This document shows positions 29,797 through 46,341 of a stretch of DNA of 64,000 bases, one piece after another (positions within the stretch are counted from its first letter, which is position 1; each line of letters starts with the position of its first letter). The position numbers were made by a program, and so were the translations under genes. Below the pieces are notes generated by a model that worked only from the letters and a program-made list of their open reading frames with translations, searched no databases and was not told where the DNA came from. The DNA is from Reinekea thalattae (GTDB lineage Bacteria > Pseudomonadota > Gammaproteobacteria > Pseudomonadales > Natronospirillaceae): assembly GCF_008041945.1 (NCBI RefSeq), contig NZ_VKAD01000001.1, positions 1,674,001 through 1,738,000 of the forward strand, written 5' to 3'.

Positions 29797-30798
29797 TTAC
29801 ATAGACATCGCTTTATCAAACACTACGTGGCTATAAGCGCCAACAGGTTCTTTAGTGATAACTGGAGTTGAGTCACTATTTAATAGCACATCAACGGTAC
29901 GCTGATACGCCGCAGGATCTAAGTAACCAATACCTTTACCTGTTGTGTTAAGCAGCTTAGCGACTTCACCCATCATACGAACTTGGTGCTCTTCAGTTTG
30001 TGCGCCAGTGTCGTCATATTCTAGAACGATCATCGCGGCTTCTTCTGGGTTTTCTGCCGCCCACTGCCAACCTTTGATTGAAGCTTTTAGGAATTTAGCG
30101 TACTTCTCAACCATTTTAGGATCGGCTAAGTCTTCTTCTAAAACATAAAGACCGTCTTCTAGTGTCGCAACACCTTCGTCTTCATATTTGAAAAGTGTTA
30201 ACTCTTCTGGCGTTAAACCGCCATCCAATACTTGGCCGTATTCGTTATAGGTCATCGTTGAAACGCAGTCTGCCTGACCTTGGAAAATAGGGTCAACGTT
30301 AAAGCCTTGCTTTAATACAGTAACACCGCTGCCGCCAGTTGTTTCATAACCTAATTTCGACATCCAGCTTAGGAATGGGTATTCATTACCATAGAACCAA
30401 ACACCTAGCGTTTTACCGCCAAAGTCTTTTGGTGTCGAAATGCCACTGGTTTTTAAACAGGTCAACATCATGCCTGACTTGCCGTAGATTTGACCAATGT
30501 TAACCATTGGCAAACCCTTTTCACGAGTTGCTAACGCAGACGGTAACCAATCAACGATAACATCCGCGCCGCCGCCAGCAAGCGTTTGTGCTGGTGCGAT
30601 ATCTGGACCGCCGGGCTTAATGGTGACGTCCAAATCTAAATCATCGTAATAGCCATTTTCTAACGCAACATAGTAACCAGCAAACTGCGCTTGAGTTACC
30701 CATTTTAATTGCAAGGTTAATTTATCTGCGGCCTGTACAGCTACGCTCGAAGCGAAAAGAACCGCACCCACTGTCAGTGAAACAACGTACTTTTTCAT
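29797..30798 (-). CDS. NMT1/THI5-type ABC substrate-binding protein
   Basis: 333 residues with signal peptide (cleavage after VAVQAADK region), then an NMT1/THI5-like periplasmic fold: LQLKWVTQAQFAGYYVALEN, DVTIKPGGPDIAPAQTLAGG and a central MLTCLKTSGISTPKDF. Related proteins bind pyrimidine precursors, riboflavin or similar heterocycles. It is the last gene of the unit dihydropyrimidinase-ATPase-permease-permease, so its ligand is probably the ring compound the dihydropyrimidinase route degrades (uracil, thymine, a hydantoin or dihydropyrimidine; inference). Confidence 0.88.
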   Translation of the reverse strand: MKKYVVSLTVGAVLFASSVAVQAADKLTLQLKWVTQAQFAGYYVALENGYYDDLDLDVTIKPGGPDIAPAQTLAGGGADVIVDWLPSALATREKGLPMVNIGQIYGKSGMMLTCLKTSGISTPKDFGGKTLGVWFYGNEYPFLSWMSKLGYETTGGSGVTVLKQGFNVDPIFQGQADCVSTMTYNEYGQVLDGGLTPEELTLFKYEDEGVATLEDGLYVLEEDLADPKMVEKYAKFLKASIKGWQWAAENPEEAAMIVLEYDDTGAQTEEHQVRMMGEVAKLLNTTGKGIGYLDPAAYQRTVDVLLNSDSTPVITKEPVGAYSHVVFDKAMSM

Positions 30799-30837
30799 CT
30801 ATCTGTCCTCGTTTATGCTTAACAAATGCGCTTTACA

Positions 30838-31800
30838 TTACTTTGCTTGCGCTGAACGTACTGACGGATGCCAGAACAAAACAGCTCTCTCCAGCAGAGC
30901 TAAAGCACCGTAGCTTATGGAACCCGCTAGGGCAGCGACTAAAATAGTTGCCCAAACCATTTCCATATTCATCCGACCAACTTCTGTCGAAATTCGAAAC
31001 CCCATACCAACGATGGGTGTGCCAAAAAACTCAGCAACAATAGCGCCAATCAATGCCATGGTTGAGTTGAGTTTTAAGGCGTTAAAAATAAATGGCAGCG
31101 CTTGTGGAAACTGATTTTTCACAAATCGCTGAGTACTTTTTGCTGCATAGGTATGCATTAAATCGTTATGCAATGGATCAACCGACTTAAGCCCAGCCAA
31201 AGTATTAATGAACATCGGGAAGAAGGTCATCACCACAACCACAGCCGCTTTCGATTGCCAATCAAAGCCAAACCACATCACCATAATTGGCGCGATACCA
31301 ACAATAGGAATGGCTGAAACAAAGTTACCCAATGGCAATAGGCTGTTCTGCAAAAACCGGCTTTTAATCGCCCAACTGGCGACAACAAAACCAGACACGC
31401 AACCGATAAAGTAACCGGCTAACACCGCCTTCATATAGGTTTGTTTAAAGTCGGCCCACAGAGTTGGAATATTGCTGATAAAGGCAACAAAGATTTCACT
31501 CGGCGCAGGCAATAGTATTTTTGAAACATCAAAGCCTTTGGTCATACTTTGCCAAAATATCAAAACTACTAAGGCAAATAGCGCTGGCACTAACGGCTTG
31601 ATATAACGACTATTAACAACCTTGGCGTCAATTAGTTGAGTCAGAGTCGACATCAACTTAGCCGCAGAAAAAATAGCAACTGGCAATAATAGAATCAGCC
31701 ATTGTTGGTTTTTGTAAAAACCTGCACTAAAAAAGAAACATAGATATAGCTGCGCTAATAAAAGCAAACTATAAACCGAAGTCTTTATTGAATGTGTCAT
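30838..31800 (-). CDS. ABC transporter permease (SsuC/TauC type)
   Basis: 320 residues; inner-membrane permease with the binding-protein-dependent-transport domain (about 100-310) and coupling helix MHTYAAKSTQRFVKNQFPQA. Its start overlaps the end of the other permease by 4 nt. The two permeases differ in sequence and should form a heterodimer. Extra hydrophobic helices at the N-terminus (LLLLAQLYLCFFFSAG) make it longer than the SsuC norm. Confidence 0.88.
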   Translation of the reverse strand: MTHSIKTSVYSLLLLAQLYLCFFFSAGFYKNQQWLILLLPVAIFSAAKLMSTLTQLIDAKVVNSRYIKPLVPALFALVVLIFWQSMTKGFDVSKILLPAPSEIFVAFISNIPTLWADFKQTYMKAVLAGYFIGCVSGFVVASWAIKSRFLQNSLLPLGNFVSAIPIVGIAPIMVMWFGFDWQSKAAVVVVMTFFPMFINTLAGLKSVDPLHNDLMHTYAAKSTQRFVKNQFPQALPFIFNALKLNSTMALIGAIVAEFFGTPIVGMGFRISTEVGRMNMEMVWATILVAALAGSISYGALALLERAVLFWHPSVRSAQAK

Positions 31801-32678
31801 AAGGCGGCTCCTCTTCGACGCAATAAAATTCGTTCAAAGAGCGCAACGATATTAACCAACACCGAACCTAAAATAGCGGCCATTAACAGCGTCGCCCAAA
31901 TCATCACGGTTTGGCCATAATAGGAACCGCTAAGTAAGCGAGAACCTAATCCACCCTGAGCGCCGGTTGGTAATTCGGCAACCACTGCACCCACTAACGA
32001 AGCAGCAATACCAATTTTTAAACTGGCGAATAAATAGGGCTGTGCCGAATACCAACGCAGCTTCCAAAATAATTGCGTGCGCGAAGCGTTATAGGTTTGC
32101 AGTAATTCCATGTGTAATTTATCGGCGGAGCGAAGGCCTTTCACCATACCGATGGTCACAGGGAAGAATGACAAATACATCGCGATGATCGCTTTAGGTA
32201 CAACGCCGGTTAAATTAATGGCACCAAGAACGACGACAATGATCGGCGCTATCGCCAAGACAGGAATGGTTTGCGATGCAATAACCCACGGCATAAAACT
32301 CAATTCGAGTGTCCGGTTATGAACAATGCCAACAGCAATGGCAATACCTAACACCGAACCTAAACCAAAGCCTAATAACGTCGATTGCAAGGTGATCATC
32401 GAATGGAATACCAATGAGCGCTTTGAGCTTACCTTGGTATCAAAAACCGATTTATACCATTGCTGCAAGACTTGATGCGGCGGTGGCAACATGGGTCGTT
32501 TTACCGAAAACGACTCACTGACTACTTGACTGACCGTCCAGCTCTGACTTTTACGTTCGTAAGTTTTAGCTAATTGGTTAGCGTTCATCCATATCGAGGC
32601 GACATACCAAATGGCGATCACCGACACGATCGTACAGACGATAGCGAACCATTTTTGATGAATAAATTTTGCTTTCAT
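31797..32678 (-). CDS. ABC transporter permease (SsuC/TauC type)
   Basis: 293 residues, partner of the preceding permease: N-terminal membrane anchor, then the transport domain with coupling helix LQTYNASRTQLFWKLRWYSA and AASLVGAVVAELPTGAQGGL near the end, where the related HMP-precursor and riboflavin importers have a similar phrase. ATGA overlap with the downstream permease gene. It lies 18 nt after the ATPase gene. Confidence 0.88.
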   Translation of the reverse strand: MKAKFIHQKWFAIVCTIVSVIAIWYVASIWMNANQLAKTYERKSQSWTVSQVVSESFSVKRPMLPPPHQVLQQWYKSVFDTKVSSKRSLVFHSMITLQSTLLGFGLGSVLGIAIAVGIVHNRTLELSFMPWVIASQTIPVLAIAPIIVVVLGAINLTGVVPKAIIAMYLSFFPVTIGMVKGLRSADKLHMELLQTYNASRTQLFWKLRWYSAQPYLFASLKIGIAASLVGAVVAELPTGAQGGLGSRLLSGSYYGQTVMIWATLLMAAILGSVLVNIVALFERILLRRRGAAL

Positions 32679-32696
32679 TCTGATCCTGCCTCGGTG

Positions 32697-33524
32697 TTAG
32701 TCGATCGCATGTTCGTCCGCCAAGGCTTCTCGAATTTCGGCAGCCAACGCGTGGAAGGCTTCCGTATCGCGTAAAGCCAATGTCTTCATTCTTGGCAGCG
32801 GGCTTTCGATAACTTTGGTAATTCGACCCGGTCTCGGTGACATCACAACAATGTGCGTTGACAACATGACGGCCTCAGCAATCGAGTGGGTGACAAACAC
32901 CACTGTCTTTTGCGTTTCTTGCCAAATTTTTAATAATTCGACATTCATGTGATCGCGAGTAATTTCATCGAGCGCACCAAAGGGCTCATCCATCAGTAAC
33001 AAATCTGGCTCAATGCACAGAGCACGAGCAATGGAAGCACGTTGCTGCATGCCACCAGAAAGTTGCCAAGGGTATTTTTCATGGAAGTCTTGCAAGCCAA
33101 CCATCTTTAAGTATTTATCAATCTGCTTAGTTTGGTGTGCTTGCGAATGACCGGCGATCTCTAACGGCACCGCACAGTTCTTTTTAATGGTGCGCCACGG
33201 TAATAACGCCGCAGCTTGGAAAACATAACCGTAAAGTCGGTTGAGCCGTGCATCTTCTGGGCTGGTGCCGTTAACCTTAATATCACCTTGCGTCTGCTTT
33301 TCTAAATCGGCAATCACTCGCAACAGCGTTGTTTTACCGCAGCCAGACGGGCCAATAAAAGAAACGAAGTCACCCTCGTTAACGGTTAAATTAATATTAG
33401 AAAGTGCATTGACCGGACCGTCGTTGGTTTCAAAAACCAACGACAAGTCGTTCACTTCAATCATGGTACGGCCCGACGAATTTGCATCCGTCGTTGAGGC
33501 CTCTGTTTTTTCAGCTAGCGTCAT
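32697..33524 (-). CDS. ABC transporter ATPase (SsuB/TauB type)
   Basis: 275 residues with Walker A GPSGCGKTTLLRVIA (about residue 60), Q-loop YVFQAAALLPWRTI, signature LSGGMQQRASIARAL, Walker B LLLMDEPFGALDEIT, and the His switch in VFVTHSIAEAVML. It energises the pyrimidine-type importer from the cytoplasm. It follows the dihydropyrimidinase gene by 24 nt on the same strand. Confidence 0.92.
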   Translation of the reverse strand: MTLAEKTEASTTDANSSGRTMIEVNDLSLVFETNDGPVNALSNINLTVNEGDFVSFIGPSGCGKTTLLRVIADLEKQTQGDIKVNGTSPEDARLNRLYGYVFQAAALLPWRTIKKNCAVPLEIAGHSQAHQTKQIDKYLKMVGLQDFHEKYPWQLSGGMQQRASIARALCIEPDLLLMDEPFGALDEITRDHMNVELLKIWQETQKTVVFVTHSIAEAVMLSTHIVVMSPRPGRITKVIESPLPRMKTLALRDTEAFHALAAEIREALADEHAID

Positions 33525-33548
33525 TTAATCATCTCGCTCATGTTCGCA

Positions 33549-35015
<1,467 letters not shown>

Positions 35016-35085
35016 CTATTCTGTGCACGTTGCTGTTCTGTTTTTTAAGCAGGCACGTATAAACCTAATATTTATCTATGCAAGG

Positions 35086-35105
35086 TTTTGACCAATTGGA
35101 CAAAA
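35086..35105 (-). promoter_or_regulatory. RutR-like palindrome upstream of hydA
   Basis: TTTTGACCAATTGGACAAAA, a 20-bp palindrome broken only at one base pair. Its core agrees with the E. coli RutR box TTGACCAnnTGGTCAA at 13 of 14 fixed positions. It lies about 100 nt upstream of the dihydropyrimidinase start, fitting an operator of the promoter for hydA and the importer. The two RutR-like TetR proteins nearby are the obvious binders. Confidence 0.78.
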
Positions 35106-35722
35106 GGTGGCGGTTTTTTTAAACGCCTTGGTTTTGGCTATCGTTAGCGCGGTTATTTTTAAAAATACAAAAATAGAAAAAAAATTTATGAAAATTACGA
35201 ACCAAAAATGAGCACTGAATTATTGTTTTGCTCATTTGTGCCTAGTTATGGATAAAACGACAAGACAATCAGCTACCACCACAATAAATAAAATAAATTA
35301 TCGTTAACAAACAAAGACTTAAGGAAAAAATCAACAGATCTATTTAATTTTTAAATGCACCAATGAGTAACAGAATAAAACCTAACCGCCATTCATAACG
35401 GTAAAATTTAAAAATATAAGCAAGCCATATAAATGATGCGCTCATTTGTGGGGCATATGGTTTTTAGGAATGAAAAAATAAAGAGTAACAATAGAAAAAC
35501 AGAGCAGGGCTGTAGCGGTTTAATGGAACGACAATCTAACTTTTAAAACACTTTAAATAAAATTAAAAAACAGATAGGAAATTATAAACACAAATAGAAG
35601 AGCTAGTTAAAAAGCTAATTGAAGAGCAATGGTAGCTTGTAAAATAGCTACCATTACTCAACTTATAAAGCATAAGACATCAAGACTTATATCTGTATGC
35701 TCATTATTTTTACGAACACTTA
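35106..35722. other. AT-rich intergenic region without genes
   Basis: About 600 nt with no believable reading frame. It includes two copies of GCTCATTTGTG (35230-35240 and 35440-35450), 210 nt apart, and a perfect 10-bp hairpin AATGGTAGCT/AGCTACCATT (35628-35637 and 35646-35655) after the hydrolase stop, which may help end its transcript although no strong T-run follows. Confidence 0.6.
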
Positions 35723-36988
35723 TTAAACCGCAGCAGCACCTTCTTCTGCTTGCGATGCAATACGCTCACTGGCACCCAGCATGGCATGTAACAATACGTT
35801 AGCGCCCGCTTCACATTCCTCAGGCTTGGTATCTTCTAGCTCGTTATGGCTAATACCATCTTTACAAGGCGTGAAGATCATACCGGTTGGGACGATATCT
35901 GCCATGTAGCAGGCATCGTGACCAGCACCGGCATAAATATCCATGTGTGAATAATCTAATTCTTCGGCTGCTTTTTTAATATCGTCCGAAGCATTAAATT
36001 CAACTGGTGCGAAATACCAGAAATTATCCACCTCTATTTCGATATTGCGCTCTTTGGCAACTTTTGCACAGAACGCTTGGAACTCTTCATCCATCTTAGT
36101 CAGCACATCTGCGTTCGGGTTACGCAAGTCTACACTGAACTTAACTTCACCCGGAATAACGTTACGAGAGTTAGGGAACACCTGCATAAAACCAACCGTG
36201 CCTAAACCATTATCGTAACGGCCAGCCAACTCTTCGATCTCAGTGATAATTTTTGAGCTGGCAACCATGGCATCGTTACGCAAATACATCGGCGTAGTAC
36301 CCGAATGCGATTCACGACCTTTAACCGACACATTGTACCAACGAATACCCTGACCTAAGCGAACAACGCCAATGACTTTTTCTTGATCTTCAAGGATCGG
36401 ACCCTGCTCAATGTGCGCTTCAAAAAAGGCACCGAAGTTTCGGCTACCGGGTTCTGCATCACCGATGTAACCAATTTTTTCTAGCTCATCACCTAAGCGA
36501 ATGCCATCAACATCGGTTTTATTTAATTCAGTTTCTAAATCAAAACGCCCAACATAAACACCAGAACCTTGCATAGCAGGCTGGAAACGAGAACCCTCTT
36601 CGTTAGTCCATACCGTAAATTCCATCGGCGCTTCAGTAACAATGTTATTTTCGTGCAGGGTACGCAGCACTTCAACGCCAGCCAAGACACCAAACACGCC
36701 ATCGAACTTACCGCCGGTAGGCTGAGTATCTAAGTGACTGCCTGTAGCAACTGCGGGTAAATCATTATTCAAGCCATCACGGCGAGCAAACATATTGCCG
36801 AACTTATCGACTGTAACGGTGCAACCACAATCTTCAACCCACTTAACAAAAAGGTCTCGCGCCTTACCGTCAAGTTCTGTACCGACCAAACGTTTACAGC
36901 CGCCTTTGGGCGTTAAACCGAACTCGGCCATTTCCATTAGGCTGTCCCAAAGTCGCTCGCCATTGATTCGTAACTCTTTCATATTCAT
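35723..36988 (-). CDS. Zn-dependent N-carbamoyl amide hydrolase (beta-ureidopropionase / carbamoylase, M20 family)
   Basis: 421 residues, M20/HyuC-AmaB group. Metal and catalytic motifs: GSHLDTQPTGGKFDGVFGVL (His, Asp; about 80-99), WTNEEGSRFQPAMQGSGV (Glu pair; about 127), HIEQGPILE (about 193) and YAGAGHDACYM (His; about 383). It hydrolyses N-carbamoyl-beta-alanine or N-carbamoyl amino acids, the step after dihydropyrimidinase, giving beta-alanine, ammonia and CO2. Transcribed from its own promoter with a RutR-like palindrome at 37115-37130. Divergent from the TetR gene. Confidence 0.92.
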   Translation of the reverse strand: MNMKELRINGERLWDSLMEMAEFGLTPKGGCKRLVGTELDGKARDLFVKWVEDCGCTVTVDKFGNMFARRDGLNNDLPAVATGSHLDTQPTGGKFDGVFGVLAGVEVLRTLHENNIVTEAPMEFTVWTNEEGSRFQPAMQGSGVYVGRFDLETELNKTDVDGIRLGDELEKIGYIGDAEPGSRNFGAFFEAHIEQGPILEDQEKVIGVVRLGQGIRWYNVSVKGRESHSGTTPMYLRNDAMVASSKIITEIEELAGRYDNGLGTVGFMQVFPNSRNVIPGEVKFSVDLRNPNADVLTKMDEEFQAFCAKVAKERNIEIEVDNFWYFAPVEFNASDDIKKAAEELDYSHMDIYAGAGHDACYMADIVPTGMIFTPCKDGISHNELEDTKPEECEAGANVLLHAMLGASERIASQAEEGAAAV

Positions 36989-37114
36989 ACGAAGTCCTTA
37001 ATTTGTTAAGTCGCTGTTTTGCAGCGATTGTCTATCGTTTAGCCGACACCCTAACTTGCCCGTTGAACTCATCAGGCCAGCAATAGATAACCTGTTATTA
37101 GGCATCGACACCGC

Positions 37115-37130
37115 TTTACCAAATGGTAAA
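37115..37130 (-). promoter_or_regulatory. RutR-like palindrome upstream of the carbamoyl hydrolase
   Basis: TTTACCAAATGGTAAA is a 16-bp palindrome with perfect 7-bp arms, same core ACCAnnTGGT as the RutR box. It stands 127 nt before the hydrolase start in the 546-nt divergent gap to the TetR gene; the remaining gap is AT-rich and shows no gene. Confidence 0.75.
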
Positions 37131-37534
37131 AGCTTGTGGCAAAAAAATTTGATCGATGATTCATTTTTAACTAAGCGAATCATCGAAACAAAAACCACCA
37201 TGCAGTTTTTGTTCCCAAATTTTTTATTAGGGTTTAATTTTTTCTGATTTTTTTTAGATATTCCCTCTAAATAACAACAACTTAGCTAACAGTTAATAAA
37301 TATTTTTTACCTCTTAAACTCTGTTTAAATTCATCGTCAGCAACAACAATATGATTCAATATCGAGCATACAAAAGTCAGGCTCGCGCTTTATCGATGCA
37401 AAATTATTGCTGACGAACGCGTGCCGCTGTCGCACCAAAGGCTGCGTGAATAAGTTTGCCAATTCTGCCTATTTAACCCAGAATCCTAGTTTCAGCTTAT
37501 CACTCGTGATGACCTTCAAGGAGTAACAACCACT

Positions 37535-38191
37535 GTGACCACCTCTCGTATCCTGCCGCTTGCGCAGCAGTCGACCAAGCCTTCTTCAGCTCGCATAGCC
37601 ATGGAAACCAACATATTACGCGGCGCTGAAAAGGTATTCGCAGAATTTGGCTTTCACGGCTCAACTATGGATCGAATTGCCGATAACGTCGGTATTTCTA
37701 AGCAAAATCTTCTTTACTATTACCCGTCTAAAGAGCGTCTGTACCGCACTGTTTTGCAAAACATCGTTGACCTATGGCTGGAACGGATGACCTTTGCTGA
37801 CGAACCTAGCCAGTCACCAGAACAGATCATTGCTAACTATGTGCGTGGCAAACTGGAGTTATCTCGGGATTACCCAACGGCCTCAAAAGTGTTTGCGATG
37901 GAAGTCATTGCTGGTGCGCCAATTATTAAAGACTACTTACAAACCAGACTTAAACCCCTATTCGACAAGGACATAAAACTGGTTCGACGCTGGGTTCGGA
38001 ACAAGCAGCTTTCTAGTATCAAGCCGGAACATTTGTTTTTTTCTATTTGGGCGATGACACAAACCTATGCAGATTTTTCGGTACAAATCGAATTAATGAT
38101 GGGCAAACCAAAGCTGGAACAGAAAGATTTCGATCACGCGACCGAATTTTTAACCACGATGATTTTGCGCGGTATTGTCGACCCAAAATAA
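37535..38191 (+). CDS. TetR-family regulator, RutR-like
   Basis: 218 residues. The helix-turn-helix STMDRIADNVGISKQNLLYYYPSKERLY (about 45-72) and the YcdC/RutR-type C-terminal domain (IANYVRGKLELSRDYPTASKVFAMEVIAGAPII) mark it as close to RutR, which senses uracil and thymine. The start is a GTG at 37535 with GGAG about 11 nt upstream; an ATG at 37601 is possible but cuts close to the HTH. It lies between the hydrolase and the F420 genes, where RutR-like palindromes occur, so it most likely controls both. Confidence 0.88.
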   Translation: MTTSRILPLAQQSTKPSSARIAMETNILRGAEKVFAEFGFHGSTMDRIADNVGISKQNLLYYYPSKERLYRTVLQNIVDLWLERMTFADEPSQSPEQIIANYVRGKLELSRDYPTASKVFAMEVIAGAPIIKDYLQTRLKPLFDKDIKLVRRWVRNKQLSSIKPEHLFFSIWAMTQTYADFSVQIELMMGKPKLEQKDFDHATEFLTTMILRGIVDPK

Positions 38192-38445
38192 GGCACCTTA
38201 AAAAAAATTATCCGCTATTTAGCTAATTTTCCATTCTATCGGCACAGTCAACAGACAAATTTTGGATAGCAGACTGTGCCTCTGCTCAAACTCAAACCCT
38301 ACCTTTAAGCCATTGTATTTAACCAGATTCTGCTCTTTTTGCTGTAAAAATTCAGCGCCAATTCAATAAGCTGTTTTCGATAGATGACAAAAAAATCCCC
38401 ATTTTTGCGCGAGTCTCGCACCAAAATAATCCCAACAAACAAACC

Positions 38446-38461
38446 TTTACCATTTGGTAAA
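38446..38461 (+). promoter_or_regulatory. RutR-like palindrome upstream of cofG
   Basis: TTTACCATTTGGTAAA, a 16-bp palindrome with perfect 7-bp arms, identical in arms to the one before the carbamoyl hydrolase. It lies 103 nt before the cofG start and would place F420 synthesis in the same regulon as pyrimidine degradation. The rest of the 372-nt gap has no gene. Confidence 0.76.
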
Positions 38462-38563
38462 AACCGTGCTATTTGTAGTTTAACAATCAATTGACTGAGC
38501 TATTTTTAGCTTGGTAAAAATATCACCACGGTCGCTTATTGAGCGAAAAAAAGGGGACGCGAC

Positions 38564-39691
38564 ATGCTAACCGCCGAGCAGGCTTACACGTTAGAATCGA
38601 TCAGCGAGACTGAACTTAACGATCTCTGCGCCAGCGCCAGTAACTTACGTGAAAGTCACTGGGGTGATATTGTCACTTACTCTCGCAAAGTATTTATTCC
38701 GCTGACCAACATGTGTCGCGATACCTGTAAATACTGCACCTTTGTTAAAACGCCAGAATCTGGCGAAGCCAACCTGATGACGCCAGACGACGTTTTAGCC
38801 ACCGCTCGTGCTGGCGACAATCTCGGTTGCAAAGAAGCATTATTCAGCTTGGGCGAACGACCAGAAAAGCGTTATCGTCTGGCTAAAGATTTACTCGCCG
38901 CGCAAGGGCACGACTCAACGGTGAGCTATTTATACGCCATGGCGGAATTAGTCATGCAGCGCAGTCAATTAGTGCCTCACATTAATGCTGGTGCGTTAAC
39001 GGAAAACGAATTGCGGTTTTTACGTCCTGTCGCTGGCTCTATGGGCATGATGTTAGAAACCAACAGCCCTCGTTTAATGCAACCGGGACAAGCGCATCAC
39101 GCCTGCCCAGACAAACAACCCAAGCGACGCATGGCAACATTAGAAGCCGCGGGGAAACTCGATATTCCTTTTACCACTGGCTTACTTATTGGCATTGGCG
39201 AAACCTGGCAAGAGCGTGTCGATAGCCTTATCGCCATTAATCAGTGCCACCAGCAATACGGTCATATTCAAGAAGTCATCATTCAAAATTTTCGCGCTAA
39301 AGAAGGCACCGACATGGCAGGCGCTATTGAGCCAAGCCAGCAAGATATGCTTAAAACATTAGCAGTTGCTCGATTGATTCTCGACCCAAGCATCAGCTTA
39401 CAAGCGCCACCTAATTTAGAGCAGGATTATGCCCGCTACCTTGATGCAGGCATTAACGATTGGGGCGGTATCTCGCCAGTCACTCGCGACTTTATTAATC
39501 CAGAACGGGCTTGGCCTCAAATTGAAACACTGAGAAAACAATGCCAAGCGCAGCAACTAACCCTGCAAGAACGACTCACGGTTTACCCAAGCTATTTAAA
39601 ATCTGGCGCTCGCTACCTAGCAGAAAACGTAAACCAACGTATGCAACTTATTGCGTCTTCATCTGGCTTAGCTGCACATCAGTGCTTCTAG
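38564..39691 (+). CDS. cofG: FO synthase subunit 1, radical SAM (CofG)
   Basis: 375 residues. The radical-SAM [4Fe-4S] motif is CRDTCKYC (CX3CX2C, about 50-57). Further family stretches are LFSLGERPEKRY and TTGLLIGIGETWQERVDSL. With CofH it joins tyrosine to the flavin precursor 5-amino-6-ribitylaminouracil, giving FO, the chromophore of coenzyme F420. Strong AAGGGGA site before the ATG. In actinobacteria CofG and CofH are usually fused as FbiC; here they are separate as in archaea. First gene of a seven-gene run. Confidence 0.95.
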   Translation: MLTAEQAYTLESISETELNDLCASASNLRESHWGDIVTYSRKVFIPLTNMCRDTCKYCTFVKTPESGEANLMTPDDVLATARAGDNLGCKEALFSLGERPEKRYRLAKDLLAAQGHDSTVSYLYAMAELVMQRSQLVPHINAGALTENELRFLRPVAGSMGMMLETNSPRLMQPGQAHHACPDKQPKRRMATLEAAGKLDIPFTTGLLIGIGETWQERVDSLIAINQCHQQYGHIQEVIIQNFRAKEGTDMAGAIEPSQQDMLKTLAVARLILDPSISLQAPPNLEQDYARYLDAGINDWGGISPVTRDFINPERAWPQIETLRKQCQAQQLTLQERLTVYPSYLKSGARYLAENVNQRMQLIASSSGLAAHQCF

Positions 39692-39718
39692 CCGCGAACG
39701 TCTCTAAGGAGAATAAAT

Positions 39719-40966
39719 ATGTCCTTACATCAGCTCGCTTTAGACACCGAATCTTCAACGGCAAGCACGATTCAACTCGACCAAATAGCAGCGGACATCC
39801 GTGACATTTTAAGCCAAGCGCTGAACGGCGAAGAAATTTCTACCGAGCAGGCGATTAAGCTATTTGCCACAGAAGGCGCCGAGTATCGTGCTTTAATGCA
39901 GGTTGCCGATCGAGTTCGACAACAACGCTGTGGCGATGTTGGCAGCTTTGTCATTACTCGTAATATCAACTTTACCAACGTCTGCTATCAAGGCTGTAAG
40001 TTTTGTAACTTTGCAAAACGCAAAGACGACGATGACGCCGAATTTTTATCGCTCGAAGAAATTGCTAACCGCGCACAAGAAGCGTGGGATCGCGGCGCCA
40101 CCGAAGTTTGTATTCAAGGCGGCTTGCATCCAAAAATGAGCATCGACTTTTATCGCGATATTCTGCTCACCATAAAAGCGCGCTTACCTAGCATGCATAT
40201 TCATGCCTTTTCTCCGTTCGAAATTTGGTTCGGCGCTCGGCGTGCAAAAATGAGTTACCGAGATTTCTTAACCGACTTAAAACAGTGCGGCTTGGATTCT
40301 ATGCCTGGCACGGCGGCAGAAATTTTAGACACAGAAATACGCCAGCAATTAACCCGCAATAAACTCAGTACCGAAGATTGGGTTGAGATTGTTAAGACCG
40401 CGCATCAGGTTGGCATTCGCACCACATCGACCATTATGTACGGTCATATTGATCAGCCAAAACATTGGGCCGAACATTTGGCGCTGCTGCGTGACATCCA
40501 AAAACAAACCGGCGGCTTTACCGAATTTGTGCCGCTGGGTTTCATCCATTACGAAACCACGCTGTACAACGATAACCCTGACACGGTTCGCCCCGGCCCA
40601 ACTCGCAGTGAACATTTTAAAATGCATGCCATCGCTCGGCTCATGCTGCAAGGCCAGATCGATAACATTCAGGCCTCTTGGGTAAAAATGGGACCAGAAG
40701 TCGCTAGCCAAATGTTGCGTTGTGGCGCTAACGATTTAGGCGGCACTCTGATGAACGAAAGTATTTCGCGTGCCGCAGGCGGTGATCACGGCCAAGAAGT
40801 GCAGCCAGAAGACATGGTGGCGAATATTCATCGCGCCGGTTTAGAGGCTTATCAACGCTCTACGTTCTATAAAGAAGTTAAAGCCTATCCGTTGGCCGAG
40901 AGCATGAATCAGGCTAGCGTAATGCTACCGGAACAACAAATAAACTGCGTGAGCCAGTCGCTGTGA
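39719..40966 (+). CDS. cofH: FO synthase subunit 2, radical SAM (CofH)
   Basis: 415 residues. Cluster motif CYQGCKFC (CX3CX2C, about 85-92). TEVCIQGGLHPKM and HAFSPFEIWFGARR are typical of CofH and the related MqnC/MqnE enzymes. It makes the tyrosine-derived radical product used by CofG. TAAGGAG-type ribosome site 8 nt before the ATG; its stop overlaps cofD by 4 nt. The first 60 residues, before the radical-SAM core, are of usual family kind. Confidence 0.95.
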   Translation: MSLHQLALDTESSTASTIQLDQIAADIRDILSQALNGEEISTEQAIKLFATEGAEYRALMQVADRVRQQRCGDVGSFVITRNINFTNVCYQGCKFCNFAKRKDDDDAEFLSLEEIANRAQEAWDRGATEVCIQGGLHPKMSIDFYRDILLTIKARLPSMHIHAFSPFEIWFGARRAKMSYRDFLTDLKQCGLDSMPGTAAEILDTEIRQQLTRNKLSTEDWVEIVKTAHQVGIRTTSTIMYGHIDQPKHWAEHLALLRDIQKQTGGFTEFVPLGFIHYETTLYNDNPDTVRPGPTRSEHFKMHAIARLMLQGQIDNIQASWVKMGPEVASQMLRCGANDLGGTLMNESISRAAGGDHGQEVQPEDMVANIHRAGLEAYQRSTFYKEVKAYPLAESMNQASVMLPEQQINCVSQSL

Positions 40967-41976
40967 GCTCTTTAACTAATAATAGCTCTTTAAACAACAA
41001 GGACTCTTTAAACAATAAGAGTTCGGCGAAGATCACACTATTAGCTGGCGGTGTCGGCGGAGCAAAAGCAGCCGAAGGGCTTAATGCTAGCCGTTACCGT
41101 GATGGGCTTTCGATCATCGGCAACATTGGTGATGACCAAGCCTTTCATGGCCTTTGGGTGTCTCCCGATATCGACACCCTGACTTACAGCTTAGGTGATC
41201 GCATCAACCGTGAACAAGGTTGGGGCTTGGCTGGCGATACCTGCCAAGTGCTCAACGGTTTGCAGCAGCTGGGCGTTGATACTTGGATGCAGTTAGGCGA
41301 TTTAGATTTTGCCACTCACATTTATCGTACCGAACGACGACAGCGTGGCGAGCGTCCACAACAGATCGCAGAAGATATTGCCGTTGCAAACGGCGTCAAC
41401 GTCAGCCTGATTTTACCGACCGACGACGTCGTTGCTACACGCCTAAGAACGCAAGACGGCTGGCTGTCGTTCCAAGATTATTTTGTTCGCTTGCGCTGTG
41501 CTCCTGACGTGCTCGAAGTTGAATACCACAATGCCGAGCAAGCCAAAGCCAACCCAGAAGCGCTTGCCGCCCTGACTCAAGCCGACCTTATTATCATTGC
41601 GCCCAGTAACCCGATTTTAAGCATTGGTGCGATTTTAGCGATCGATGATCTTCGCACTCAACTTAAAGCTCGTACCGTACCAGCCATAGCGATCTCACCA
41701 TTAATTGGCGGCCAAGCGGTTAAAGGCCCAGCCGAAAAAATCATGACCAGCTTAGGTATGCGCGCCGATGCTTTAGGCATTGCACATTATTACCAAGGGT
41801 TGATCGACACGCTGGTCATCGACTCGTGCGACCAACACTTACAAGCCGATATCGAAGCGCTCGGCATTCAGGTGCATGTCACCAATATCTGGATGAAAAC
41901 GCCACAAGATAAAGAGCGGCTGATGAGCGAAGTGGCCGAGCTGGCATTACAAACAACCGTGGGAGAACTTGGATGA
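40963..41976 (+). CDS. cofD: 2-phospho-L-lactate (or analogue) transferase (CofD)
   Basis: 337 residues. Nucleotide-binding start ITLLAGGVGGAKAAEGLNAS (about 26), then GNIGDD and later PSNPILSIGAILAI and ISPLIGGQAVKGPAEKIM, all diagnostic of CofD/FbiA. It transfers the lactyl/PEP/phosphoglycerate phosphate part from the guanylylated intermediate to FO. GTG start overlapping cofH. The first 18 residues (SSLTNN, SSLNNK, DSLNNK) are a threefold tandem duplication in the DNA, absent from other CofD proteins that I know. Confidence 0.95.
   Translation: MSSLTNNSSLNNKDSLNNKSSAKITLLAGGVGGAKAAEGLNASRYRDGLSIIGNIGDDQAFHGLWVSPDIDTLTYSLGDRINREQGWGLAGDTCQVLNGLQQLGVDTWMQLGDLDFATHIYRTERRQRGERPQQIAEDIAVANGVNVSLILPTDDVVATRLRTQDGWLSFQDYFVRLRCAPDVLEVEYHNAEQAKANPEALAALTQADLIIIAPSNPILSIGAILAIDDLRTQLKARTVPAIAISPLIGGQAVKGPAEKIMTSLGMRADALGIAHYYQGLIDTLVIDSCDQHLQADIEALGIQVHVTNIWMKTPQDKERLMSEVAELALQTTVGELG
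40966..41019 (+). repeat. Three degenerate 18-bp tandem units inside the cofD 5' end
   Basis: AGCTCTTTAACTAATAAT (40966), AGCTCTTTAAACAACAAG (40984) and GACTCTTTAAACAATAAG (41002) encode a low-complexity Ser/Leu/Asn tail at the CofD N-terminus. The unit length keeps frame. Confidence 0.88.
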
Positions 41977-42617
41977 AGCCGAATGAGCTAAACATCGTTA
42001 TCCCGATGAAAGATCCGACTAAGGCGAAAAGCCGATTACGCGATGTGCTGGCACCACAAAACCGAGCCACATTGGCGTTAACGCTGTATCGAAACACGCT
42101 GCAATTTTTCGCGGAATTTTTCCCAGAGGCGAACCGCCTAGTGGTCACCGAATCCGCACAAATTGCTGCCATTGCCAAACAGTATCAGGCTGACGTTTTA
42201 CTCGAAGCAAAGGCTCAAGGGTTAAACCAAGCACTGAACGCAGCAACGCAGTGGAGCTTAAAGCACAAGTTTCATTATCAACTGATTATCCCAGCAGATA
42301 TCGCCCAATTGAGTGCACATGAAGTAAACCAGCTGTTACTGCAAATGCAACAGGGCCACGACGTCGTGATCGCCCAAGCCAAAGACGGCGGCACCAATGC
42401 ATTGGCCTGTTCACCACCAAACGCCATTAATTTTTGTTACGGCAAAGATTCTGCCGAGGCGCATTTACAACTGGCACGAGCCAACGGCTTGGCAGTGAAA
42501 TGCCTAACCCTAAGCCAACTCAGTTTGGACATTGATTGGCCGGCAGACCTTAAACAGCTGCACAGCTCGCACCAAGCCAACCCCTTAACCACTTTCGAGC
42601 CGAGGGCTGCTTTATGA
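41973..42617 (+). CDS. cofC: 2-phospho-L-lactate/PEP/3-phosphoglycerate guanylyltransferase (CofC)
   Basis: 214 residues, nucleotidyltransferase of the CofC/FbiD family: IVIPMKDPTKAKSRLRDVL at the N-terminus (GTP site), LIIPADIAQLS for the metal Asp, and DGGTNALACSPP. It guanylylates a three-carbon phosphate that becomes the side-chain linker of F420. Which phosphate is used (lactate, PEP or 3-phosphoglycerate) cannot be told by eye. ATGA overlaps at both ends with cofD and cofE show tight coupling. Confidence 0.92.
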   Translation: MKPNELNIVIPMKDPTKAKSRLRDVLAPQNRATLALTLYRNTLQFFAEFFPEANRLVVTESAQIAAIAKQYQADVLLEAKAQGLNQALNAATQWSLKHKFHYQLIIPADIAQLSAHEVNQLLLQMQQGHDVVIAQAKDGGTNALACSPPNAINFCYGKDSAEAHLQLARANGLAVKCLTLSQLSLDIDWPADLKQLHSSHQANPLTTFEPRAAL

Positions 42618-43408
42618 CACCAGCTTCACCCCAAACCAGCCCTGTGGAGATGCAAGTATTCAGCGTTGCAGGCTTGCCAGATTTCCAACCCGGCATGGAT
42701 TTAAGCCAAGCCATTATCGAGGCATTGGCGGCACAAAATACCGAGCTAATGGCCGGTGATATTTTAGTTATCGCCCACAAGGTGGTTTCAAAAACCGAAG
42801 GTGCGGTGATCGATATCGAACAGGTAACGCCATCGGATGAGGCAATTCAACTGGCAGCCGAGGTCAATAAGGACCCGCGCAAGGTTGAAGTTATTTTGCG
42901 TCAATCAAGCCGAATCATTCGCAGCATGAAACGACCAGAGCAAGAAGAAGGCACCATCATCGCCGAACACAAACTCGGTTTTATTTGCGCCAATGCCGCC
43001 GTTGATGAGTCTAACGCTGACCACGTCGGCCAATTAATTACGCTACCGGATGATCCGGATGCCAGCGCAATGAATGTCTGCAATGCACTAGAAAAACACT
43101 TTGGTTGCCAATTGGGTGTTGTTGTTAGTGACACCTTTGGCCGACCTTGGCGACTCGGGCAAACCAACGTCGCCGTTGGCTTAGCCCGAGTACCTGCCAT
43201 TACCAAGCTAGATGGCTCTGATGCTTGGGGTCGGGAATTAAAAGTCACGGCTCCAGCCTTTGCCGATGAATTAGCGGCGGCATCTGGCTTACTGATGAGT
43301 AAAGACGGCAAATGCCCGGTGATTATTTTTAGAGGCTTGGCATGGCAAGCAAGCGAGTCAAAAGCCCAAGATATTTTACGTTCTAAACGAGAGGATCTAT
43401 TTCGATGA
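42614..43408 (+). CDS. cofE: Coenzyme F420-0:L-glutamate ligase (CofE)
   Basis: 264 residues. [13 protein letters not shown] near residue 56, [19 protein letters not shown] near 172, and [20 protein letters not shown]: all standard CofE/FbiB ligase motifs. It adds the gamma-linked glutamate tail to F420-0. It stops where the archaeal type does: the C-terminal flavin (nitroreductase-like) domain of mycobacterial FbiB, which reduces dehydro-F420, is missing. ATGA overlaps with cofC and npdG. Confidence 0.94.
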
Positions 43409-44088
43409 CACAAACATCAACACTGGCCATTTTAGGTGGCACCGGACCACAGGGCACCGGCTTAGCTTTACGTTTTGCCAAAGCTGGCGTTCCGGTTGTG
43501 ATTGGCGGACGCGATGCAGATAAAGCTCGCGAACACGCCAAAGAACTCAGTCAGCAACTGCCTGATGGCAGCGCAGAAATTACCGGCACTGACAACGCAA
43601 CAGCAACCGAGCAGGCTGGCGAACTGGTTATTTTATCGGTGCCTTATGCAGCTCATAACGCAACGCTTAGCGAAATTAAACCTCTGTTAAGCGACAAGGT
43701 TTTAATCGACATTGTTGTGCCATTGGCTCCGAAAAATCCTAAGGCGGTTGAAATGCCACCCGAAGGTTCGGCTACCGAAGCGGCCCAAGCCTTATTGGGC
43801 GAAGACATTGCTGTTGTCGGTGCACTGCACAATGTTTCTGCGGTAACGCTAAACAAGGTTGATCAAGCCATTAACTGTGACGTTCTTGTCTGCGGTAATC
43901 AATTAGAACCGAAACGCAAAGTTATGGCATTAATTTCTAAACTGGGTGTTAACTGCTACAACGCAGGTCTGGCAGAAAGCGCTCGATGCGTTGAAGCCAT
44001 TACGCCTATTTTAATTCGCCTCAACATTTCTAAAGAGGTGCCATTCAGTCATGCGGGTATCACCATTTGCCCACCGGCTGAACATTAA
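43405..44088 (+). CDS. npdG: NADPH:F420 oxidoreductase
   Basis: 227 residues of the F420-dependent NADP reductase family: [18 protein letters not shown] (NADP Rossmann motif), [37 protein letters not shown], and [13 protein letters not shown]. It reduces F420 with NADPH, supplying F420H2 for the luciferase-like enzyme downstream. ATGA overlap with cofE completes a chain of translationally coupled F420 genes. Confidence 0.93.
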
Positions 44089-44151
44089 TAAAACGATCGT
44101 AACACAGAGAATTTTCACTCCAATTTTTAGTTAATAAACGAGGACAACAGA

Positions 44152-45159
44152 ATGGAATTTGGTATTACTTTTAAAGGCTTTGTAAGCCCAGATCGTGCCC
44201 GTAAACTGGTTCGCCAAGCAGAAGAAGCTGGCTTTACCTATTGCTGGTTTTATGACTCACACATTCTTTGGCGCGAATCTTTTGTTGCCATGGCAATGTG
44301 TATGGAACACACCACCAAAATGCGTTTTGGCCCTTGTGTGACTAACCCTAACATCCGTGATTGGTCATTAGCGGCCAGCCTTTATGGCAGCTTGGCATTA
44401 CAAAGTGAAGGCCGTATTGATATCGGTTTGGGCCGTGGTGATTCATCGATGCGTGTTATGGGTAAAAAACCTGCACCGCTTGCTCGCGTTGCCGAATTCA
44501 CTCAAAAAGTAAAAGCCATGGTCAAGGGTGAAGAAGAAGTCAGCTATGGCGAATGCGCCTCGCCGGTGAAATTCCCTTGGGCTAATGGTTATGATCTACC
44601 AGTTTGGATTGCCGCTTACGGACCAAAAGCACTGGCGACAGCAGGTGAACATGGCGATGGTTTGATTCTACAAATTGCCGAGCCACAATTGGTTAAATGG
44701 TTCTGCGATCAATCTTTAGAAGCGGGTAAAGCAGCAGGCCGCGATATGTCTAACTTTAAAGTTCAGGCAGCGGCTCCGGCTTACTTCGGCAGCAAAGAAG
44801 AATGCATCGAAGCAACCAAATGGTTCCCTGCGATGGTGGGTAACCACGTTGCCGATATTGTTGAAAAATACGGCAGCGACTCTGGCTTAGTGCCTCGCAG
44901 CTTGACCGACTATATCGAAAGCCGAAAAGGTTACGACTACTCGAAGCATGGCCAAAGCGACAACCCATATTTAGACTTTATCTCTGATGAAATTATCGAA
45001 AGTTTTTCTGTATTAGGCAGCGTTGATGATCACATTGCTAAAATCAAAAAACTGGAAGAAGCCGGTACGACTCAGTTTAATATTTATCTAGATAATGGCG
45101 ATGAAGAAAACATCATTGCTAATTACGGCAATCATATTATCCCTAAGTTTCAAGGCTAA
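44152..45159 (+). CDS. Luciferase-like F420-type oxidoreductase (CPS_4043-like family)
   Basis: 335-residue TIM-barrel protein of the bacterial luciferase-like superfamily: MEFGITFKGFVSPDRARKLV, FYDSHILWRESFVAMAM, GRIDIGLGRGDSSMRVMG. The overall pattern is that of the F420-dependent family named after CPS_4043 of Colwellia psychrerythraea (recognition from memory). Its substrate is not shown by sequence. Its gene follows npdG by 63 nt and is last in the F420 run; because the regulon also holds dihydropyrimidinase and carbamoylase, it may reduce the pyrimidine ring (inference). GAGG site before the ATG. Confidence 0.88.
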   Translation: MEFGITFKGFVSPDRARKLVRQAEEAGFTYCWFYDSHILWRESFVAMAMCMEHTTKMRFGPCVTNPNIRDWSLAASLYGSLALQSEGRIDIGLGRGDSSMRVMGKKPAPLARVAEFTQKVKAMVKGEEEVSYGECASPVKFPWANGYDLPVWIAAYGPKALATAGEHGDGLILQIAEPQLVKWFCDQSLEAGKAAGRDMSNFKVQAAAPAYFGSKEECIEATKWFPAMVGNHVADIVEKYGSDSGLVPRSLTDYIESRKGYDYSKHGQSDNPYLDFISDEIIESFSVLGSVDDHIAKIKKLEEAGTTQFNIYLDNGDEENIIANYGNHIIPKFQG

Positions 45160-45201
45160 TAAGATCTAGGATTAATAAGCTCTAGGGCTAAAAGCTTCAA
45201 G
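45154..45201 (+). repeat. Three degenerate 16-bp tandem units spanning the oxidoreductase stop codon
   Basis: GGCTAATAAGATCTAG (45154), GATTAATAAGCTCTAG (45170) and GGCTAAAAGCTTCAAG (45186). The first contains the last Gly codon and the TAA stop; the others lie beyond it. Confidence 0.75.
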
Positions 45202-45257
45202 GCTGATAGCCCAGCGATAATCTGATAACCAAGGCGAGTTCGAAAATCGCTTTAACA

Positions 45258-45290
45258 AGAGCCTAGCGGCAACGCTAGGCTCTTTTTTTT
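45258..45290 (+). terminator. Strong terminator of the F420 operon
   Basis: AGAGCCTAGCG, loop GCAA, CGCTAGGCTCT: an 11-bp perfect stem followed by eight T. About 100 nt after the last stop codon. Confidence 0.93.
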
Positions 45291-45316
45291 CATGATAGGT
45301 TATTAAGAGGTTTTTT

Positions 45317-45364
45317 CTGACAGGCCTTTTTGCTGACAGGCTTTTTCTCTGAAAGACTTATTGT
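45317..45364. repeat. Three degenerate 16-bp tandem units next to the second TetR gene end
   Basis: CTGACAGGCCTTTTTG (45317), CTGACAGGCTTTTTCT (45333) and CTGAAAGACTTATTGT (45349), ending 1 nt before the TetR stop codon. Confidence 0.75.
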
Positions 45365-45365
45365 G

Positions 45366-46019
45366 CTACTCGTCTAAACGAATACCACAGCCTTTTAGTA
45401 CAAGGCGCGTAATCAGCTCGATACCGGCATCATAGTCTTCATCCCCGAGGCGGTTTTTTTCTAGCATGATGCAGCTTTGCAATGCATGATCGGCATAGCC
45501 TTGTGTTGATGTCCATAGCATGAAGATTAAATGTTCTGGACTGATCGGATCCATCCATTTCTTTGCGATCCAGCCACGAAATACTTCGCAGGTTCGCTCA
45601 AACTGATCTTTCAAATCTGTTTCTAATTGCTGCCGTAAAAATTCAGCGCCATGCAATATTTCGGCGGCAAATATTTTTGATGCATGAGGGTGTTCTTGGG
45701 ATTGCTGAATTTTATTTTTAATATAACTCACCAATGCATCGCGCGGGTGTTGCTCAACGGTCATGGCATCCATGTGCCGCATCCAAATCGTCAATTGCTG
45801 ACTGAGTACCGTGCGATATAGCGCCTCTTTCGATTTAAAATAATACAGCACATTGGCTTTTGGTAACTCGGCCTCTTCTGCAATTGCCGCAATGGTTGTG
45901 CCACGATAGCCACGTTCGGCAAAAACTTTTTCTGCCACAGTTAGGATCTGCTCAGAATTTCCTTTGCGGATGTCTGCAAGTTTGCGACGTACCGGCACTG
46001 CACTTTTTTCCTGTTTCAT
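45366..46019 (-). CDS. TetR-family regulator, second RutR-like copy
   Basis: 217 residues from ATG 46019 (a GTG at 46031 is possible; neither has a good ribosome site). HTH: TTIAAIAEEAELPKANVLYYFKSKEALY, C-terminal RutR/YcdC-type domain: VSYIKNKIQQSQEHPHASKIFAAEILHGAEFL. It resembles the regulator at 37535 in both domains. It converges with the F420 operon. Two paralogous sensors in one cluster might read different ligands, for example uracil and a degradation product. No RutR-like palindrome was seen directly before it. Confidence 0.87.
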   Translation of the reverse strand: MKQEKSAVPVRRKLADIRKGNSEQILTVAEKVFAERGYRGTTIAAIAEEAELPKANVLYYFKSKEALYRTVLSQQLTIWMRHMDAMTVEQHPRDALVSYIKNKIQQSQEHPHASKIFAAEILHGAEFLRQQLETDLKDQFERTCEVFRGWIAKKWMDPISPEHLIFMLWTSTQGYADHALQSCIMLEKNRLGDEDYDAGIELITRLVLKGCGIRLDE

Positions 46020-46341
46020 GGTTGGTAACACAGCCTTTATTCACTTACGTAACAGCATCATACAAAGTGCTCGAAATAGATAATAAATAATGCAACAGAT
46101 TTGAGCCAATAACCATCCTCAGACTATTTGAACCAAAAAACATTGTCAGATTAAAGGTATGCCCGCGCCTGAAATATTTTCATGCCTAATACTTTTGGCT
46201 AATCGATGATCCTGCTGAATTAACGACAAAAATATATAACAGAGTGAGGCCGCGATAAAAGCTGTGTTCTCGCTTGATCTTTGCAAGCTTTTTAGCCAAA
46301 GTGACTGATTACCCAACCAGCTTACTTAGGAAGTCATAAAA
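46020..46341. other. Intergenic region
   Basis: About 320 nt between divergent genes. Only AT-rich sequence and ordinary promoter-like elements; no gene, repeat or clear operator seen. Confidence 0.6.

Follow-up and report, generated by a model that had tools for sequence, protein, structure and literature searches.

What does a complete set of F420 biosynthesis genes do beside the genes for a dihydropyrimidinase and a carbamoyl-amidohydrolase? Such a cluster occupies positions 29797-46031 of a 64,000-nucleotide stretch of the Reinekea thalattae genome (the window; contig NZ_VKAD01000001.1, positions 1,674,001 to 1,738,000). Its minus strand encodes an NMT1/THI5-like ATP-binding cassette (ABC) importer, the dihydropyrimidinase HydA, a Zn-dependent carbamoyl-amidohydrolase and, further on, the regulator RutR2, and its plus strand encodes, in this order, RutR1, cofG, cofH, cofD, cofC, cofE, npdG and a luciferase-like protein of family TIGR03842, here called LLM. 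The reductive PreTA pathway of pyrimidine degradation comprises dihydropyrimidine dehydrogenase, dihydropyrimidinase and N-carbamoyl-beta-alanine amidohydrolase; LLM is very probably an F420H2-dependent uracil/thymine reductase that replaces PreTA in it. Behind this assignment stand the gene content of the cluster, the absence of PreA and RutA, operator-like sites, co-occurrence across genomes and the arrangement of preTA in a congener.

A candidate F420-dependent first enzyme

The genes of the cluster, with bit scores and family cut-offs, are:

29797-30798, minus: substrate-binding protein of the NMT1/THI5-like ABC importer (PF09084)
30838-31800, minus: ABC permease (PF00528)
31797-32678, minus: ABC permease (31% identical to the cluster's other permease)
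32697-33524, minus: ABC ATPase (37% identical to an annotated Paracoccus ABC ATPase)
33549-34997, minus: dihydropyrimidinase HydA (TIGR02033, 598.4 bits, cut-off 393.25)
35723-36988, minus: Zn-dependent carbamoyl-amidohydrolase (TIGR01879, 436.1 bits, cut-off 204; NF006769, 601.3, cut-off 452)
37535-38191, plus: RutR1, RutR-like TetR regulator (PF08362, YcdC/RutR C-terminal domain; 44% identical to E. coli RutR)
38564-39691, plus: cofG, FO synthase subunit (TIGR03550, 463.9 bits, cut-off 213.35)
39719-40966, plus: cofH, FO synthase subunit (TIGR03551, 511.8 bits, cut-off 374.1)
40963-41976, plus: cofD (TIGR01819, 278.1 bits, cut-off 257.45)
41973-42617, plus: cofC (PF01983, 87.7 bits, above the Pfam cut-off)
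42614-43408, plus: cofE (PF01996, 221.6 bits, above the Pfam cut-off)
43405-44088, plus: npdG, NADPH:F420 reductase (TIGR01915, 196.4 bits, cut-off 149.8)
44152-45159, plus: LLM, luciferase-like F420 enzyme, proposed F420H2-dependent uracil/thymine reductase (TIGR03842, 511.5 bits, cut-off 295.45)
45366-46031, minus: RutR2, RutR-like TetR regulator (PF08362)

A preliminary description of this DNA had named these genes (importer, hydA, carbamoyl hydrolase, two RutR-like TetR regulators, cofGHDCE, npdG and LLM), and the profile scores bear it out, gene by gene and place by place; the end of the cluster, which it had put at 46019, had to be moved to 46031, where the last open reading frame ends. 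The label RutR-like also proved apt, as both regulators carry PF08362 (164.4 and 153.4 bits) while staying below the RutR equivalog cut-offs (TIGR03613, 207.1 for RutR1 and 170.8 for RutR2 against 368; NF011584, 193.6 and 153.9 against 230). The best solved relative of HydA is the D-hydantoinase/dihydropyrimidinase 5ykd (771 bits). The solved relatives of the Zn hydrolase include 8c46, an N-carbamoyl-beta-alanine amidohydrolase, and 1r3n, a beta-alanine synthase, as well as N-carbamoyl-L-amino acid hydrolases; judged by its sequence, it is probably an N-carbamoyl-beta-alanine amidohydrolase. The complete set cofGHDCE lies in the same gene run as LLM. Since successive genes from cofH through npdG overlap by a few bases and the gaps before cofH and LLM span 27 and 63 bases, the genes from cofG to LLM likely form one operon.

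LLM aligns over 329 of the 329 positions of the TIGR03842 model and is a full member of this family (F420_CPS_4043), which NCBIfam carries as a hypothetical equivalog with no function listed. In a search with its structure model (predicted local distance difference test score, pLDDT, 90.1), F420-dependent Mer takes the first eight places among the fold matches and other F420-dependent enzymes the following 11; by sequence and fold, its closest solved relative is Mer (25-29% identity), with FGD2, Adf and FGD1 next. Mer performs F420 hydride transfer. LLM is not itself a member of the Mer family TIGR03555, where it reaches 120.1 bits against a cut-off of 348.7, and at the position of Mer Glu6, the residue mutated in 8qq8, the 44 aligned TIGR03842 members have Thr (24), Cys (17) or Val (3); the substrate chemistry should therefore differ from that of Mer. 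The fold and the gene neighbourhood suggest that LLM uses F420.

Is a conventional first enzyme encoded elsewhere in the genome (2.94 Mb, 98.5% complete)? A search with PF01180 (DHO_dh; E <= 0.001) matched only the biosynthetic PyrD, and neither NF006183 (PreA; E <= 1e-95) nor TIGR03612 (RutA; E <= 1e-130) had a match, and a hidden PreA was rejected on these searches. The earlier claim that PreA, PreT and RutA are absent thus extends to the whole genome for PreA and RutA, PreT not having been searched separately. The luciferase family PF00296 is represented by LLM and one 327-residue MsnO8-family protein (TIGR03558, 425.8 bits, cut-off 166.95), and by nothing else. LLM is the sole TIGR03842 member found in the genome, in which other F420-using families (FDOR) were not searched.

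Exchange with preTA and co-occurrence across genomes

A congener, G284, has the conventional enzyme in the corresponding setting. There, preA-preT stand divergent from a RutR2 orthologue (75% identical), beyond which follow genes for a cytosine deaminase (NF006685, 603.4 bits, cut-off 483), a PucR-type protein and a cytosine/purine permease. Its Zn hydrolase is 60% identical to that of the window, and its run of HydA, ABC ATPase, two ABC permeases and substrate-binding protein is 85, 88, 75, 73 and 86% identical to the genes listed above; cof and LLM are missing from this preTA/hydA stretch. Two further genomes (G074 and G156) combine preTA with a RutR2-like regulator, the Zn hydrolase, HydA and the same importer, and in Azospirillum the order is preT-preA-Zn hydrolase-TetR-hydA. 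The genes flanking the module are not shared between the window and G284. The window holds the same module, with cof-npdG-LLM where its relatives have preTA, which comes close to a natural replacement experiment. It shares with the PreTA pathway the dihydropyrimidinase, the carbamoyl amidohydrolase, the RutR-like regulators and the importer, and differs from it in having, instead of PreA, an unrelated F420 enzyme of luciferase fold along with npdG and the whole set of F420 biosynthesis genes.

G284 also has a second PreA gene (contig C15; NF006183, 584.9 bits; 51% identical to Azospirillum PreA), accompanied by a RutR1 orthologue (67%), distant homologues of HydA and the carbamoylase, and an aminotransferase; this locus is possibly another reductive ring-opening pathway.

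The same alternation is seen across the order, in an even draw of 293 genomes: 14 have a TIGR03842 protein over the cut-off, 31 a TIGR02033 dihydropyrimidinase, 20 PreA (one of them, G266, as a partial match barely above the cut-off) and five RutA. Dihydropyrimidinase occurs in 13 of the 14 LLM genomes versus 18 of the 279 without LLM (p 2e-13), and none of the 14 has PreA or RutA. Among the 31 dihydropyrimidinase genomes, LLM is found in 13, PreA in 13, neither in five and both in none (Fisher p 4e-5), in a sample of related genomes in which seven of the 14 LLM carriers belong to one genus. Seven of the 20 PreA genomes are without TIGR02033. The distribution of LLM is patchy; it is missing from the three other sampled genomes of the window's genus and from four of 11 of the genus richest in carriers.

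The linkage of LLM to dihydropyrimidinase recurs in other genera and phyla. Around 80 named LLM loci from a contig scan, many of them cut by contig ends, we called neighbours by fixed identity thresholds and found HydA at 35 loci, the Zn carbamoylase at 23, a carbon-nitrogen (CN) hydrolase at 13, a class III aminotransferase at 24, an NCS1 permease at 18, a binding protein of the window's type at 12, a RutR-like regulator at 26, cof genes at 48 and npdG at 44; PreA, PreT and RutA were called at none of the 80. At least one pathway hydrolase is near LLM at 42 loci, and a hydrolase or cof at 67. Grouped by hand from record titles, the loci with HydA are 7 of 21 in Gammaproteobacteria, 12 of 36 in Alphaproteobacteria, 13 of 15 in Chloroflexota, 2 of 3 in Actinomycetota, 1 of 1 in Acidobacteriota and 0 of 4 in the rest. 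On the co-occurrence and these locus counts, a chance neighbourhood was rejected. Contiguous sets include NCS1-HydA-LLM-aminotransferase (L083), CN hydrolase-HydA-LLM (L098) and aminotransferase-CN hydrolase-LLM-HydA adjoining an ABC importer (L110). The best matches of the L098 CN hydrolase are Drosophila CG3027-PA (197.6 bits), which we take to be beta-alanine synthase, and beta-ureidopropionases (192), followed by N-carbamoylputrescine amidohydrolases (182 and 178) and, far lower, D-carbamoylases (83); these relatives favour N-carbamoyl-beta-alanine as its substrate.

In 49 genomes reached through 50 of the 80 loci, at least two of which (L061 and L062) are also in the order sample, a dihydropyrimidinase is over the cut-off in 47 (48 at E 1e-90). 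Leisingera plasmids carry pntAB within the LLM cluster.

Several loci deserve separate mention. A group of uncultured Alphaproteobacteria (L085-L088, L091, L092 and L097; 1.6-2.2 Mb in the four genomes that could be sized) has a compact run of cofD-cofE-npdG-LLM-Zn hydrolase-HydA-ABC-substrate-binding protein, in L085 with additional genes for an EamA transporter and a class III aminotransferase. The genes cofG, cofH and cofC were not detected in the 20 kb examined around these runs; FO synthase may be located elsewhere, or FO scavenged. On the Caballeronia plasmid pSBC2-6 (L006:10001-13991), an LLM remnant covering 38% of the query adjoins a Zn hydrolase, an alanine dehydrogenase and a short transhydrogenase beta gene (annotated pntB), possibly a decaying plasmid copy of the LLM cluster. 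A record labelled Nocardioides marinus (L079) has a Leisingera-like cluster with a TetR regulator 92% identical to that of Leisingera, and the assembly is probably mislabelled or mixed. At L115:10001-12100, LLM is present in two adjacent copies that share 59 and 60% identity with that of the window.

Candidate RutR-type operators

Are the F420 genes also regulated with the pyrimidine genes? We scored the window against TTGACCANNTGGTCAA, taken here as the consensus of E. coli RutR. Three sites match with at most two mismatches, compared with 0.20 expected and with 0 of 100 shuffles reaching three; at three mismatches there are six matches versus 2.68 expected. The three predicted operators are:

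35088-35103, no strand assigned: TTGACCAATTGGACAA, about 90 bp upstream of hydA, one mismatch to the consensus
37115-37130, no strand assigned: TTTACCAAATGGTAAA, between the divergent carbamoylase and rutR1
38446-38461, no strand assigned: TTTACCATTTGGTAAA, about 100 bp upstream of cofG

Exact TTKACCANNTGGTMAA sites number three in the whole genome, namely those at 37115 and 38446 and a third that precedes pntA by about 310 bp (G000:C1:993433-993448, L153:4934; pntA by TIGR00561, 697.3 bits, cut-off 444.4). With one mismatch, the pattern occurs at eight places in the genome versus four for the reversed control. This genome has an exact box at pntA; no operator at pntA in other genomes is among the matches listed, which leave out the congeners and most Marinomonas, and the box is not supported as a general feature. 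One of the RutR-type boxes with a single mismatch lies upstream of xdhA (G000:C2:104729-104744, L156:2730), which encodes the small subunit of xanthine dehydrogenase (TIGR02963, 557.1 bits, cut-off 467).

The box before cofG recurs in relatives. Of 23 hand-picked representatives, each from a different genus or metagenome-assembled genome, 22 were scored, the window included, Bermanella (L064) having no scorable cofG; as controls served 490 stretches upstream of cluster-unrelated open reading frames from the same loci. The box is present with at most one mismatch in 12 of the 22 lineages, with at most two in 16 and with at most three in 19, against 7, 13 and 41 of the 490 controls. When all relatives examined are counted, many of them Marinomonas and some genomes counted twice, boxes with at most one mismatch are found before cofG in 62% of 45, before the carbamoylase in 37% of 43 and before rutR1 in 73% of 22, compared with 1.15% of random stretches. 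The preT-RutR2 interval of G284 contains CTGACCATCTGGTCAG, with two mismatches. These shared palindromic sites suggest that a RutR-like regulator probably represses cof-LLM and, with it, the hydA-ABC and carbamoylase/rutR1 promoters.

Proposed pathway and its alternatives

From these comparisons we infer a substrate, a reaction direction, a cofactor and repression. The ABC importer would bring in a pyrimidine or a precursor, and NpdG, going by its family, would reduce F420 with NADPH. LLM would then reduce the C5=C6 bond of uracil or thymine, with a hydride passing from F420H2 to C6 and an enzyme residue protonating C5, to give the 5,6-dihydropyrimidine, whose ring the dihydropyrimidinase would open and from which the Zn amidohydrolase would release beta-alanine, CO2 and ammonia, as their families suggest. 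F420 would here be made as an accessory of the catabolic pathway. In a broader form, which we hold to be moderately likely, many Gram-negative bacteria and some Chloroflexota and Actinomycetota use F420H2 to dearomatise uracil and thymine, and Gram-negative F420 biosynthesis is a catabolic accessory switched by RutR-like regulators, with its NADPH supply (npdG, pntAB) in the same regulon or plasmid cluster.

That an F420 enzyme performs the initial ring reduction, as the preliminary description had proposed, is the leading explanation of the comparative evidence and of the exchange with preTA in the congener, the activity itself being deduced. Its expectations could have failed: co-occurrence of LLM with dihydropyrimidinase and avoidance of PreA and RutA were borne out in the order sample, and the postulated regulon is consistent with the operators in the hydA, carbamoylase/rutR1 and cof-LLM promoter regions and with the recurrence of the cofG box. 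Its third entry into pyrimidine degradation is loosely worded, as the entry would be the known reductive one with a new enzyme and reductant; the novelty would lie in the initial enzyme and its cofactor, and in the joint regulation of the genes that make that cofactor. If true, the assignment would supply the function that NCBIfam lacks for a widespread F420 family listed there as hypothetical, explain F420 biosynthesis in scattered Gram-negative bacteria, bring into pyrimidine catabolism an enzyme that runs on F420 and is unrelated to dihydropyrimidine dehydrogenase, and offer a case of cofactor biosynthesis that shares both regulation and plasmids with the enzyme apparently using the cofactor. 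In the open-access literature searched, which leaves most subscription papers aside, we recognised no paper making this assignment, and it may have been reported elsewhere. A related proposal concerns SSGG-03002 / NpsU of mureidomycin and napsamycin biosynthesis, a putative F420/FMN oxidoreductase genetically needed for reduction of the uracil C5=C6 bond (PMC10714638); it serves antibiotic tailoring rather than catabolism, and was compared with LLM by its description.

A number of observations weigh against our assignment. As to the enzyme, Mer Glu6 is not conserved and gives no lead to the proton donor, in-vitro assays of the antibiotic enzyme failed in its authors' hands (PMC10714638), and the genome search that found no known pyrimidine first enzyme (PreA, RutA) did not cover the URC and barbiturase routes. 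As to distribution, the five dihydropyrimidinase genomes with neither LLM nor PreA are left over, and counted once per genus and state (17 units) the exclusivity of LLM and PreA reaches only P=0.037. One genome, G105, has an LLM that is 43% identical and no dihydropyrimidinase. PreA is present in seven of the 49 LLM genomes (L072, L073, L075, L077, L079, L084 and L129; Leisingera, Limimaricola and the record labelled Nocardioides), so that strict exclusivity fails; these seem to carry two parallel pathway sets, because PreA has a dihydropyrimidinase 2.4 to 3.1 kb away in all seven, and each encodes a second one as well. No pathway hydrolase lies in the examined stretch at 38 of the 80 LLM loci, some of them short contigs, and 13, including Eremiobacterota and Deltaproteobacteria, have neither hydrolase nor cof (L078, L090, L094, L096, L103, L107, L108, L111, L114, L127, L128, L130 and L135). 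The relatives of the L110 aminotransferase are mixed class III enzymes and do not establish the beta-alanine route. As to the operators, the E. coli rutA-rutR interval itself scores three mismatches, and the pntA box has two to three mismatches in three congeners. Over 28 genomes, the one-mismatch pattern occurs at 175 places versus 137 for the reversed control (summed), and single boxes therefore mean little alone. In the relatives, none of 43 hydA genes and two of 96 LLM genes are preceded by a box with at most one mismatch, no enrichment over the random 1.15%, so that the hydA and LLM boxes are not general there; the two before LLM (L102 and L106) are both without cofG nearby, and L089 and L104 have boxes with two mismatches.

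Could the reduced ring be another one? LLM might act on, for instance, an oxopurine product such as yanthine before opening by a cyclic amidohydrolase, with similar downstream hydrolases. For Chloroflexota uricolytic clusters with SsnA, a putative F420-dependent luciferase-family yanthine reductase has been proposed (PMC12507026), and like LLM it would reduce a heterocycle ahead of amidohydrolase opening; it belongs to a purine pathway and was compared by description only. The one-mismatch operator upstream of xdhA points the same way. However, beta-ureidopropionase-like CN hydrolases and class III aminotransferases recur near LLM, Chloroflexota included, the congener has PreA in the place of LLM beside a cytosine deaminase and a permease, and the cluster encodes two RutR-like regulators, all of which makes an oxopurine substrate improbable. 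Degradation of hydantoins or other non-aromatic cyclic ureides, with LLM performing a side reaction or handling a product, is less probable again. Dihydropyrimidinases act on hydantoins too, N-carbamoyl-L-amino acid hydrolases are found within the family of the Zn hydrolase, and NCS1 permeases include hydantoin carriers. Hydantoin hydrolysis, however, requires no reductant, which leaves cof-npdG-LLM unexplained, as is the exclusivity of PreA and LLM in the order, and the CN hydrolase partner is nearer to beta-ureidopropionase than to D-carbamoylase.

Still more doubtful is a general redox role for LLM, merely carried along with pyrimidine genes, or a reverse reaction in which it oxidises a dihydropyrimidine. 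While the 13 loci without hydrolases and cof would suit this reading, the linkage in several phyla, the shared operators and the PreA exclusivity in the order speak against it, and npdG, together with pntAB in Leisingera, points to production of F420H2. The Rut pathway resembles the proposed one in having a luciferase-like first enzyme that acts on a pyrimidine and in RutR-type control, and differs in that the window genome has a dihydropyrimidinase and no RutA was found in it. That LLM is a RutA-like flavin monooxygenase, rather than an F420 hydride-transfer enzyme, is the least likely of all and was rejected, for although RutA belongs to the same superfamily and acts on uracil too, TIGR03612 is not among the 20 families that LLM matched, a dihydropyrimidinase is not needed after RutA-type ring opening, the first 19 fold matches of LLM are F420-dependent enzymes, and cof and npdG lie in its own gene run.

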